DNA from: Chloroflexota bacterium
GTDB taxonomy: Bacteria > Chloroflexota > Anaerolineae > Anaerolineales > Anaerolineaceae
Reading direction: 5' to 3'
Length of the DNA: 64,000 nucleotides
Assembly (NCBI GenBank): GCA_012522475.1
Contig: JAAYKH010000061.1
Span: 55,559 to 119,558 of the forward strand
In this document: positions 8,212-14,982 of the stretch, in pieces
How positions within the stretch are numbered: the first letter of the stretch is position 1
Layout of the letters: each line of letters opens with the position of its first letter
The notes under the pieces: model-generated
Seen by the model: the letters and a program-made list of their open reading frames with translations, nothing else
What the model was told of the DNA's origin: nothing
The model's database searches: none
Made by a program: the position numbers and the translations under genes

Positions 8212-8263
8212 CATAATGTCAATAGTGTGGCATAATTGTTTGTCTATAATAAAAGGAGTGAAC

Positions 8264-8599
8264 ATGTTATTAATGATTACCAGCCAGGATAAAGACTTAC
8301 AAAGTCAGCCAAACCCACAATTTGGACGCACCCCCTATTTCATCAAATACATTCTTGAGAATGATGACTGGGAAGCCTTGGAAAACGCCGCACAGAGCGA
8401 ATCCGGGGGGGCTGGCGTCGCTGCTTCACAATTCGTTATCAACAATCAAGCTTCGGCTGTTATCAGCGGGAGATTTGGCCCCAACGCCTATCATGCGCTC
8501 AAAGCTGCTGGGCTAGAATTGTGGACTTTTGAACCGGATTGTGTATCCGTAGAACAAGTCATTGAACAATACAAAAAAGGATTGTTAAAACGAGGATGA
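8264..8599 (+). CDS. NifX/NifB-type dinitrogenase Fe-Mo cofactor-binding-like protein
   Basis: A 111-residue single-domain protein of the Nitro_FeMo-Co type: MLLMITSQDKDLQSQPNPQFGRTPYFIKY at the start, a central GGAGVAASQFVINNQASAVISGRFGPNAYHALKAAG, and a C-terminal LELWTF segment. Such small proteins bind Fe-S or Fe-Mo type clusters in nitrogenase systems, but standalone copies in anaerobes have no proven role. The ORF track extends to 8216; I chose 8264 because AAAAGGAG lies six bases upstream and the fold begins there. Its stop overlaps the next ATG (ATGA), so it is translationally coupled to the MinD/ferredoxin ATPase. No nif structural gene is visible in the window. Confidence 0.88.
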   Translation: MLLMITSQDKDLQSQPNPQFGRTPYFIKYILENDDWEALENAAQSESGGAGVAASQFVINNQASAVISGRFGPNAYHALKAAGLELWTFEPDCVSVEQVIEQYKKGLLKRG

Positions 8600-9474
8600 G
8601 TTCAATAAAAATTGCCATTGCCAGTGGAAAAGGTGGGACTGGCAAAACAATGATCGCGACCAGCTTGGCGGCCTCGCTGGCGGCTTCTAAAAAAGTTCAT
8701 CTCGTCGATTGTGATGTTGAGGCACCCAATTCGCATTTATTCCTCAAGCCTGAGATTTCAAAATCAACTCCGGCTGTTTTGAAAATTCCCCAGATCGATC
8801 TGGATGCATGTATTTTATGCGGTGCCTGTGTAGAGGCATGTCAATTTCATGCTCTGGCAATGATCGCAGATCAAATTTTGTTCTTTTCGCAACTTTGTCA
8901 TGGTTGCGGAGGCTGCTTTCATGCCTGCCCAACAAACGCGATCACTGAAGTTGACAAGGAGGTCGGAAAGCTAAATCAGGGCCAAATAGAGCATGGCGCC
9001 TCCCATGATTTTGGTGTGATGACAATTAGCGAAGCCATGCCCACCCCCATTATCTATCAGTTGAAAGCCTTGAACAGGGATTCGGCAGAAGTAATCCTTC
9101 TCGACACGCCTCCAGGGGCTTCGTGTGCTGTTGTCGCCACCATTTATGATGCAGATTATGTCGTGCTGGTCACCGAATCTACCCCGTTTGGCTTCCATGA
9201 CCTGAAAAAAGCACTCGGAATCATATCCAAAACAGGTGCGCCAGCAGGTGTCATTATTAATCGTGATGGCATTGGTGACGGACAGGTAGAGGCATACCTC
9301 AGCCAGACCCCTTATCCGGTCTTGATGAAAATTCCCTATCGTGTTGATATTGCAGAGGGTTTAGGTTCGGGAAAGCTTCTAACTGACATTGTTCCATCAT
9401 TAAGAACGGAATTTCTAAACCTTTTTGAAGTGATTACAGCAGCCATCAACACTCACAAAGGTAAAGCATGTTAA
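8596..9474 (+). CDS. MinD/Mrp-type P-loop ATPase with inserted 2[4Fe-4S] ferredoxin domain (copy 1)
   Basis: The deviant Walker A motif SGKGGTGKT (residues 10-18) and HLVDCDVEAPN place it in the MinD/Mrp/NBP35 group. A ferredoxin insertion follows the first strands: CILCGACVEAC (Cys72,75,78,82) and CHGCGGCFHACP (Cys101,104,107,111), two complete 4Fe-4S motifs. LLDTPPGASCAVVATIYDADYVVLVTE completes the ATPase core. Relatives are linked to Fe-S cluster assembly or redox-coupled ATP hydrolysis; the substrate is unknown. The gene overlaps the nifX-like stop by four bases and its 3' end overlaps copy 2 by seven. Length 292 is typical. Confidence 0.92.
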   Translation: MSSIKIAIASGKGGTGKTMIATSLAASLAASKKVHLVDCDVEAPNSHLFLKPEISKSTPAVLKIPQIDLDACILCGACVEACQFHALAMIADQILFFSQLCHGCGGCFHACPTNAITEVDKEVGKLNQGQIEHGASHDFGVMTISEAMPTPIIYQLKALNRDSAEVILLDTPPGASCAVVATIYDADYVVLVTESTPFGFHDLKKALGIISKTGAPAGVIINRDGIGDGQVEAYLSQTPYPVLMKIPYRVDIAEGLGSGKLLTDIVPSLRTEFLNLFEVITAAINTHKGKAC

Positions 9475-10400
9475 CGAAAACGAGTTCTTTAAAACAATTG
9501 GTGATCTTAAGTGGCAAAGGTGGAACAGGTAAGACCAGTGTGGCAGCTGGCTTGATGCACCTCTCAGCCTCGTCAAAGTTTGCGGGTGTGTTTGTCGATG
9601 CAGACGTGGATGCCGCTAATCTGGGGTTGGTTACAGAGGCAAAACCCCTGGAAACGCATGCCTATTGGGGCAGTCAATCTGCTGAAATTAAACCCGAATT
9701 ATGCAATCGCTGCGACCTTTGTTACCAGGTTTGTCGTTTCAATGCCATCCAACAACCGAGAAGTCACCAGGACGCCTACCAGGTAGTGGATCTATTGTGT
9801 GAAGGTTGCGCGGTCTGCGCACAACTTTGCCCTCAATCGGCTATTTCAATGTCTAAACAACAGGACGGGGAATGGTACCGCGCACACACGCCCTATGGGC
9901 ACCTTTTTCACGCAGAATTATTTCCTGGGGCAGAGAATTCAGGCAAACTTGTTACCACTGTGAAGCAATTCGGCAAGTTATTCGCTGAAGACAACAACTT
10001 GCCCCTGATGCTCATCGATGGGCCCCCGGGTATTGGCTGCCCGGTCATATCAGCCAGCGGGGGCGCTGATTTATCCTTGCTGGTTGCTGAGCCAGGTGTT
10101 TCTGGTATCCATGATCTTGAGAGAATCATACAAACACTGGACCATTTTAACATACCGAAGGTTGTTTGCATCAATAAAGCAGACATTTTCCCTGAGGGGA
10201 CACAAGCTATCACCGAATTAACCGAAGCAATAGGGTTAACCATAATTGGTAGAATTCCATTTGATCCATTGTTGCCGAAATCGATTGTGAACGGACAACC
10301 GATCACGAAATTTGCTCCTCAAAGCCCGGCTGCGTTAGCGATCAAGGACATCTGGAGGAGACTGAAAGATATTTTATTTAATCAGGACGGCATAGAATGA
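9468..10400 (+). CDS. MinD/Mrp-type P-loop ATPase with inserted 2[4Fe-4S] ferredoxin domain (copy 2)
   Basis: A paralogue of the preceding gene (310 residues). Walker A is SGKGGTGKT (15-23), followed by VFVDADVDAANLGL. The ferredoxin insertion has CNRCDLCYQVC (Cys79,82,85,89) and CEGCAVCAQLCP (Cys111,114,117,121). LMLIDGPPGIGCPVISASGGADLSLLVAEP follows. Tandem pairs of these ATPases are typical in anaerobes, and they may form a heterodimer, since MinD-type proteins dimerise across the nucleotide; that is inference. It is coupled to the upstream gene (7-base overlap) and to the downstream DUF59 gene (ATGA overlap). No membrane helix is present. Confidence 0.92.
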   Translation: MLTKTSSLKQLVILSGKGGTGKTSVAAGLMHLSASSKFAGVFVDADVDAANLGLVTEAKPLETHAYWGSQSAEIKPELCNRCDLCYQVCRFNAIQQPRSHQDAYQVVDLLCEGCAVCAQLCPQSAISMSKQQDGEWYRAHTPYGHLFHAELFPGAENSGKLVTTVKQFGKLFAEDNNLPLMLIDGPPGIGCPVISASGGADLSLLVAEPGVSGIHDLERIIQTLDHFNIPKVVCINKADIFPEGTQAITELTEAIGLTIIGRIPFDPLLPKSIVNGQPITKFAPQSPAALAIKDIWRRLKDILFNQDGIE

Positions 10401-10717
10401 TCGTTTTAGAAAAAATCAAAGAAGATATCATATCTGCTTTGCGCAATGTTATTGACCCCGAAACTGGTGCCGACGTCATCAGGATGCGACTTGTGCTTGA
10501 TCTTCAAATCCATCCAGACGGCACCGCAGAATATATTTTTCGCCCTTCTTCACCCTTGTGCCCAATCGCTTTAACCCTGATAATTTCGATCATTGAGGCG
10601 ATTAAACCTGTTGAAGGTGTGATGGACCAAAAAGTCACCGTTGTTGATTACGTGGGAGCTGATGAGTTAAACACGCTTCTGGCATCGTTGCCGCTATCTA
10701 AAAAAATAAATAAATAA
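10397..10717 (+). CDS. DUF59/MIP18-like metal-sulfur cluster assembly protein
   Basis: A 106-residue protein beginning with the DUF59 pattern EDIISALRNVIDPETGADVIRMRLVLDLQI, then a central Cys in SSPLCPIALTLIISIIEAIKPVEGV at the place where the family carries its conserved reactive Cys. DUF59 proteins (SufT, MIP18, PaaD) assist Fe-S cluster insertion into client proteins. It is the last gene of the nifX-like/MinD/MinD operon, overlapping copy 2 by four bases. It is followed by a 112-base gap with a new promoter, so the peroxiredoxin downstream is separately transcribed. Confidence 0.85.
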   Translation: MIVLEKIKEDIISALRNVIDPETGADVIRMRLVLDLQIHPDGTAEYIFRPSSPLCPIALTLIISIIEAIKPVEGVMDQKVTVVDYVGADELNTLLASLPLSKKINK

Positions 10718-10741
10718 CACCAAAGGGTTGTGAAAGCTTCT

Positions 10742-10769
10742 TTGACGAACACCAACCTCAAGGTATAAT
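10742..10769 (+). promoter_or_regulatory. Strong sigma70 promoter of the selenocysteine peroxiredoxin gene
   Basis: TTGACG (10742-10747), 16 bases, TATAAT (10764-10769), about 60 bases before the peroxiredoxin start. Both boxes are near consensus. This shows the interrupted gene keeps a good promoter. Confidence 0.65.
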
Positions 10770-10829
10770 TATTGCAGTTTACAAGTTTTGCGCCAATTCA
10801 TTAAATAACCTATTAACGAAGGAGGACGA

Positions 10830-11537
10830 ATGACGGACTTACCCGCAGGATGTGCAACACCATCTCAAGGACCAATTGCTCTCGAGCAAAAGGAACCACA
10901 AAAAGTAACTCATAGCCAGGAGGCAATTATGGAAATAGCTAAAGTTGGAAAACCCGCACCAGATTTTGAACTGACAGGTTATTTGGATGGCGGGTTTAAA
11001 AATTTCAGACTATCTGATTACAAAGGAAAATGGATTGTCGTCTGCTTCTATCCAGGCGATTTCACCTTTGTCTGACCGACCGAATTAACAGCGGTCGCTG
11101 TTAAATATGATGAACTTAAGGAATTGGGTGTTGAGGTTTTGGCGCTCAGCACCAATAGTCACTTCTCCCACAAAATTTGGCAGGAAATTGAGCTTTCTAA
11201 AATGATTGAGGGCGGCGTTCCTTTTCCATTATTAGCCGATTCAGGCGGACGTGTGGGCACCCTGTATGGTGTTTATGATGAAGCAGCTGGCGTCGATATC
11301 CGTGGCCGATTCATCATTGACCCCGATTTTGTCATTCGAGCCTCAGAGGTGTTGACGGCGGAAGTTGGACGGAATGTCTCAGAATTATTCCGCCAGGTGC
11401 AAGCCTTCCAACATGTGGTTAAAACGGGTGAGGTTACTCCTTCAGGCTGGCGTCCCGGTAAAAAGACACTTAAACCAAGCCCAGATTTGGCTGGCAATGT
11501 TTGGAAAGAGTGGAAACCGGAAGAAGCATTCGAGTAA
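10830..11537 (+). CDS. Selenocysteine-containing AhpC/Prx-family peroxiredoxin (in-frame TGA read as Sec)
   Basis: The track splits this gene in two, 10830-11075 and 11124-11537, but both halves are in the same frame, separated only by TGA at 11073-11075. Reading through gives 235 residues with [24 protein letters not shown]. This is the AhpC active site FTFVCPTE with the peroxidatic Cys replaced by codon 82, TGA. The rest is intact ([43 protein letters not shown]). A perfect 8-bp hairpin with a GGTC loop begins nine bases after the TGA, as expected of a bacterial SECIS. The usual resolving Cys (GEVCP) is Thr203, so this looks like a 1-Sec enzyme. A strong promoter and terminator flank it. 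Two starts have good ribosome sites, 10830 (AAGGAGG) and 10929 (AGGAGG). Selenocysteine insertion is inferred; sel genes are not in the window. Confidence 0.9.
11073..11104 (+). promoter_or_regulatory. Bacterial SECIS-like element with Sec UGA codon
   Basis: After TGA (11073-11075), TTAACAGC (11085-11092) pairs perfectly with GCTGTTAA (11097-11104) around the four-base loop GGTC (11093-11096). The apical loop starts 17 bases after the TGA and begins with G. This fits the published description of bacterial SECIS elements: a small apical loop, G in its first two positions, and about 16-37 bases from the UGA. SelB binding is inference. Confidence 0.85.
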
Positions 11538-11560
11538 TCACCCTTGGCGCAATTCAAATC

Positions 11561-11591
11561 AAGGTCTGGTCACAAAACCAGGCCTTTTTTT
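11561..11591 (+). terminator. Intrinsic terminator after the peroxiredoxin gene
   Basis: AAGGTCTGGT pairs with ACCAGGCCTT (one G-U) around CACAAA, followed immediately by a run of T. It lies 24 bases past the peroxiredoxin stop. The rest of the gap up to manA (11592-11731) shows nothing recognisable. Confidence 0.85.
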
Positions 11592-11731
11592 ATTCGCCCT
11601 TATCATCCAACAAGCAAAAATTTAATAATCTATACGAAGAACATAAAAATTTAAGTATTTCTTGCTATCAAGAGGCTTATTCTCAAGGGTTGGTTTCATT
11701 TCTCGTTCACCAGGACGATGATAAATTTGGG

Positions 11732-14517: not shown

Positions 14518-14982
14518 CTATGCCTGCTTATTAAGGTACCGCTGGAATCCCATCTGCTCGATTAAATCGTTCTGTTCTTCAATCCAATCGATATGGTCTT
14601 CTTCATCCTGGAGGATTGACTCGACCAGCATTTTCGTGCCATGGTCGCCCAATTCCGAGATAAGCGCGATCGCTTTGTTATAAGCATTAATCGCATCCAA
14701 TTCAGCTGCATGGTCAAACTTCAATTGTTCCTGAACGTTTTCACCAATGTGGATTTTGTTTAACTTGTCTACAACGGGCATACCTTCAAGAAAAAGAATG
14801 CGCCCGATCAGCTTTTCTGCATGGACCATTTCTTGAATGGCGCGTTTTTCGATGACTTCATGAAGCTTCCCATAACCCCAATCCTCACACATTTCACCGT
14901 GAAGGATGTATTGGTTGATTGCTGTCAATTCATCAGCCAGAAGCTCGTTTAAAACTTTAATAATATCTGGGTGACCTTTCAT
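14518..14982 (-). CDS. bfr: Bacterioferritin
   Basis: A 154-residue iron-storage subunit that oxidises and stores Fe(II). Ferroxidase ligands are in place: Glu in LADELTAINQY, Glu and His in QEMVHAEK, Glu in AAELDAI, and Glu/His in DEEDHIDW. The Met in EMVHAEK matches the axial haem ligand of bacterioferritins, so haem binding is expected. GGAGGAATAAGG precedes the ATG. A near-consensus promoter lies upstream at 15026-15054. It is convergent with deoC. Confidence 0.93.
   Translation of the reverse strand: MKGHPDIIKVLNELLADELTAINQYILHGEMCEDWGYGKLHEVIEKRAIQEMVHAEKLIGRILFLEGMPVVDKLNKIHIGENVQEQLKFDHAAELDAINAYNKAIALISELGDHGTKMLVESILQDEEDHIDWIEEQNDLIEQMGFQRYLNKQA

Follow-up and report, generated by a model that had tools for sequence, protein, structure and literature searches.

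Selenocysteine (Sec) peroxiredoxins with a TxxU active site are counted among the known prokaryotic selenoproteins in two publications (PMC13188914; PMC1794560), and the founding PrxU protein is that of Eubacterium acidaminophilum (Sohling et al. 2001, as cited in PMC13188914). The gene analyzed here, located in a 64,000-nucleotide stretch of DNA (the window), is a further member of this already known and curated family, because such TxxU Sec peroxiredoxins have been published, because its product has a peroxiredoxin fold, and because it scores 373 bits against the PrxU model of NCBIfam, NF040737 (cut-off 270; Sec entered as Cys), with protein residues 6-231 placed on positions 2-232 of a model of 233. 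The same protein does not reach the cut-off of the AhpC model TIGR03137 (182.4 bits vs 272). Its predicted structure (pLDDT 87) resembles human Prx2 (7kj1) with a TM score of 0.77 and 45% identity. We thus consider that the gene is almost certainly prxU, encoding a Sec-containing AhpC-type peroxiredoxin, although Sec insertion itself is something that we infer from the sequence. What it appears to add to the described systems is a second translation start nested within the gene. Bacterial genes such as infB and clpB are known to produce a long and a short protein from nested in-frame starts, but to our knowledge, no such case is known for a selenoprotein or a peroxiredoxin. The features of the locus on which the following argument draws are these:

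10742-10769, + strand: sigma-70-type promoter, TTGACG-16-TATAAT (consensus scan, 11 of 12 matches)
10820-10832, + strand: first Shine-Dalgarno (SD) sequence, AGGAGG (10820-10825), and long-form start, ATG 10830 (sequence and homologues)
10830-11537, + strand: prxU, long form of 235 residues with TGA taken as Sec82 (reading frame and NF040737 match)
10851-10874, + strand: N-terminal motif CATPSQGP with conserved Cys8, which may act as resolving Cys in the long form (homologue conservation)
10918-10931, + strand: internal SD sequence, AGGAGG (10918-10923), and in-frame ATG 10929 (Met34), start of a putative short form of 202 residues (homologue comparison and codon bias)
11043-11045, + strand: Cys72, conserved in 121 of 123 homologues
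11073-11075, + strand: predicted Sec codon TGA, residue 82, at the peroxidatic position of PGDFTFVU (sequence and homologue alignment)
11085-11104, + strand: apical hairpin of a bacterial SECIS, TTAACAGC-GGTC-GCTGTTAA, with a perfect 8-bp stem (comparison with homologues)
11436-11438, + strand: Thr203, where typical 2-Cys peroxiredoxins have their C-terminal resolving Cys (alignment to 4fh8)
11561-11593, + strand: intrinsic terminator, a 10-pair stem (11561-11586) followed by a T run

A previous sequence-only reading of this DNA had placed an in-frame TGA at the peroxidatic Cys of an AhpC-type peroxiredoxin, within a single frame that is intact on both sides and flanked by a promoter and a terminator, and all of this agrees with what we observed; it named neither the curated PrxU family nor the second conserved start. 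The frame runs from 10830 to 11534, followed by TAA, with a single in-frame TGA and no further stop, and this TGA replaces the peroxidatic Cys codon of a PxxxTxxU motif in the context PGDFTFV-U-PTEL. It was also anticipated that ORF callers would fail here, and in fact, a standard ORF listing breaks the gene into 10830-11075 and 11124-11537. Given that standard ORF calling truncates PrxU at its active site, current annotation understates the oxidative defence of such anaerobes.

The homologues used for comparison were the best 80 loci of public genomes plus relatives found in 298 genomes belonging to the same class; a few loci were common to both sources, the same gene thus appearing twice, and the later tests were restricted to distinct sequences. 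The records of the best 80 loci are labelled Anaerolineae, Dehalococcoidales, Geobacter, Nitrospirae, Armatimonadetes, Ignavibacteriaceae, Aminicenantes, Spirochaetales, and others. The earlier guess that the DNA comes from Anaerolineae fits the homologues from named Anaerolineaceae, for instance, that of Levilinea, which is 75% identical to the PrxU of the window.

The internal AGGAGG lies 5 nt from ATG 10929, so that there is a complete second ribosome-binding site at the canonical N-terminus of AhpC. Since the length of the linker in front of it varies, we located the inner site in homologues by searching for the SD sequence rather than at alignment column 34, requiring an in-frame ATG, GTG, or TTG 3-12 nt past a GGAGG. 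Such a site was found in 104 of 114 distinct homologues vs 38 of 1427 control windows from the same genes, and the other ten homologues have weaker SD-like sites at the inner start. The first start is equally well preserved: in every one of the 103 distinct homologues with the Cys8 motif, a start preceded by an SD-like site is found there, the Cys lies 7 residues past the start in 91 of them, and both starts are present in 94. The codons that make up the inner SD sequence are also biased, as the Glu codon within it is GAG in 89 of 99 cases vs 895 of 2090 elsewhere (p 1e-21) and the Lys or Gln codons preceding that Glu end in G in 81 of 81 (p 3e-19), although both p-values are too small because related sequences were counted as independent. 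Some of the conservation of Met34 and of the Lys-Glu pair could be due to shared ancestry or to constraint on the protein. On these grounds, we think that both starts of prxU are probably used.

The most serious alternative, which we nevertheless consider unlikely, is that this Sec-containing PrxU is made in the long form only, with the internal AGGAGG serving as a pause site for translation or surviving as a relic. Elongation can be slowed by SD-like sites, and the one found here may act in that way. Moreover, copies that have no N-terminal extension (L133 and one copy in L065) start at a site equivalent to the inner start. This suggests an ancestral inner start that later gained the extension upstream, so the inner site may be an ancestral leftover. 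A relic, however, would be expected to decay, whereas in several phyla AGGAGG or GGAGG has been retained in other registers and with other residues (EGGENM, NGGKRF, SGGVGM), and an in-frame ATG, GTG, or TTG is always found at initiation spacing. In addition, local folding is weakest near the inner start, also when compared with positions of equal G+C, which likewise argues against this alternative. Thus, the use of both starts remains our preferred reading.

The pattern of cysteines gives a possible reason for having two forms. Sec-type homologues have three conserved Cys or Sec positions, namely Cys8, Cys72, and Sec82. Where typical 2-Cys peroxiredoxins have EVCPAGW, PrxU has EVTPSGW (Thr203-Pro204; alignment to 4fh8), and the C-terminal region of 123 Sec-type homologues has no conserved Cys, neither that of the VCP resolving motif nor any other. 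At the other end of the protein, Cys8 is kept in 110 of the 111 homologues that have the N-terminal extension, within a C-x-x-P-x-x-G-P motif. This conservation suggests that Cys8 may be the resolving residue for Sec82 in the long form, a proposal to which we give slightly less than even credence. We are a little more tentative about its extension to the whole family, according to which prxU in many phyla might produce two isoforms, a long one in which a Cys8-Sec82 selenenylsulfide replaces the C-terminal resolving Cys and a short one without it.

One could also propose that only the short form is functional and that the upstream frame serves as a regulatory leader, in frame by chance. This would agree with the linker that joins the Cys8 motif to the peroxiredoxin domain and Met34, which is variable in sequence and length and has low confidence in the predicted model, but it is improbable, as the motif and its 7-residue distance from the first start are conserved at the protein level and the first start has an SD sequence of its own. 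The use of both starts therefore still appears the better explanation.

As for the TGA, the sequence-only reading had proposed that a SECIS-like hairpin follows it, and this claim is borne out by the hairpin at 11085-11104, whose conservation in 113 homologues is above that expected from a synonymous null. Its loop lies 17 nt past the UGA and comprises nucleotides 18-21 after it (11093-11096 of the window). The hairpin of the window alone is weak evidence, since its eight Watson-Crick pairs are reached by 1.6% of synonymous recodings, and given that the 53-nt stretch folded by itself favours a different structure over the SECIS hairpin (z -1.56), the case for a SECIS rests on the comparison of homologues. 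We therefore compared a six-pair upper stem at a fixed distance in 113 distinct homologues with 1000 synonymous recodings. Pairing was found in 93.2% of cells vs 73.7 +/- 1.1% under recoding (maximum 76.8%), and the loop was GGUC or AGUU in 97% of the homologues vs 12%. GGUC occurs in 72 of the 113 and AGUU in 38, with the outer loop bases covarying and the inner GU fixed. Both stem and loop are absent from Cys-type relatives. An Rfam scan of 10400-11700 gave two matches, both at chance level.

The codon itself is also conserved. Among 130 aligned homologous sites, 123 have TGA, four TGC, two TGT, and one CGA, so TGA and Cys codons do alternate at residue 82, with six Cys codons in all. The decay among homologues that would be expected of a dying gene was not seen, apart from the truncated CGA copy (L128, at G296:C458), which has kept its SECIS stem and has, within a long open frame, unrelated sequence instead of the N-terminal part; this copy may be a broken gene or a misassembly. 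A Calditrichota MAG contig (L065) carries a pair of prxU genes some 1 kb from each other, each with a TGA (at 166-168 and 1165-1167); one of these genes has no N-terminal extension.

The sel genes that a selenoprotein would require are all present in the genome of the window (2.26 Mb, 98.6% complete), with matches to selA, selB, and selD of 535.9, 356.6, and 334.1 bits, respectively, and a tRNA-Sec with anticodon TCA. Two other tRNA-Sec-like matches were rejected, as they correspond to tRNA-Ser. The selD of this genome also contains an in-frame TGA, at the site of the catalytic Cys (SSCAGUASKLHADVL; L016, G000:C33, about 1315-2532), and another is found in a second AhpC/TSA-like gene (GFA-U-PHC, UxxC) on the minus strand at G000:C31:22188-22559 (L151); the latter gene likely encodes a Prx-like thiol:disulfide selenoprotein. 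A strong SelA match is missing from five genomes of the class sample that have TGA-type prxU, all of which have SelB, while the two prxU-homologue genomes with neither SelA nor SelB (G238 and G259) have only Cys-type relatives.

Taken together, TGA conservation, the Sec machinery, and the conserved SECIS support the earlier proposal of a selenoprotein. That the gene is instead dead, a TGC or TGT Cys codon having become TGA by mutation or sequencing error, is barely credible, for although TGA is one base away from either codon and cuts the frame, its conservation across phyla, together with that of the flanking residues on both sides, the intact promoter and terminator, the full Sec machinery, and the SECIS led us to reject this reading. 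Equally remote is a change of code by which this organism would read TGA as Trp or Cys, which would also leave the frame open, as it would be for any residue encoded by TGA; we rejected it because 15 of the window's 42 long ORFs stop at TGA and PrxU uses TGG for all five of its Trp, so that TGA is an ordinary stop elsewhere in the genome, and because tRNA-Sec (TCA), SelA, and SelB are present and relatives have Cys codons, not TGG, at the site.

Upstream of prxU lies a run of genes that had also been pointed out previously:

8216-10717, + strand: NifX-like Fe-Mo cofactor protein, two MinD/ferredoxin ATPases, and an FeS_assembly_P protein (family matches and recurrence)

Its order, NifX/MinD/MinD/FeS_assembly_P, is preserved in a genome of the same genus (G263, L136). 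The proposed association with an Fe-S/MinD neighbourhood holds in part: MinD-type genes are the commonest neighbours of prxU and recur in 18 of 123 neighbourhoods (a raw count over prxU loci only), but the association is not general. Other recurrent neighbours, named by looking at their sequences, are NifX, Fur-type regulators, rubrerythrin, and catalase-peroxidase. Fe-S/MinD runs in varied order are found beside prxU in other phyla at six loci (L052, L067, L071, L080, L082, and L112). About 3 kb downstream of prxU, a gene on the minus strand (14518-14982) looks by eye like a bacterioferritin. We read the neighbourhood as one that may serve the defence of oxygen-sensitive Fe-S chemistry.

The sequence establishes the codon for Sec, the machinery to decode it, a conserved SECIS hairpin, two start sites, and the pattern of Cys residues, and a mechanism may be proposed as follows. 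SelB and Sec-tRNA (TCA), directed by the downstream hairpin, would decode the UGA at 11073 as Sec82, which as the peroxidatic residue would reduce hydroperoxides and be converted into a selenenic acid. Translation from ATG 10830 would yield the long form carrying the Cys8 motif, while translation from ATG 10929 with its own AGGAGG would yield a short form whose N-terminus coincides with that of ordinary AhpC proteins. Because Thr203 occupies the position of the usual C-terminal resolving Cys, Sec82 would be resolved either by Cys8, through a putative Cys8-Sec82 bond in the long form, or by an outside thiol in the short form, such as a low-molecular thiol or thioredoxin, the latter suggested by the family name only.

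Compared with the PrxU family (NF040737), the protein of the window shares a full-length match over 226 residues, the TxxU active site, and an N-terminal extension that lies within the model, and we found nothing that places it outside the family. With AhpC and typical 2-Cys peroxiredoxins (TIGR03137; human Prx2, 7kj1), it shares the fold and the PxxxTxxC/U motif, but it differs from them in having Sec as the peroxidatic residue, Thr203, and a Cys8-bearing extension. Our literature search, which covered publications other than the founding PrxU paper, found no description of an internal start, whether for PrxU or for another selenoprotein, nor of the PrxU pattern of Cys8 with no C-terminal Cys, and the nested start and the Cys8 pattern look like the only new parts of this system. 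The combination of a nested start retained across phyla with an N-terminal Cys and a lost resolving Cys can be tested, seems not to have been described for a selenoprotein family, and would explain how Sec82 is recycled. If it is true, the ratio between the two starts would tune the resolution of peroxide or the sensitivity to overoxidation. As in genes of the infB and clpB type, prxU has a second SD sequence and start in frame within the gene; in contrast to them, its two forms would differ by a redox-active Cys.
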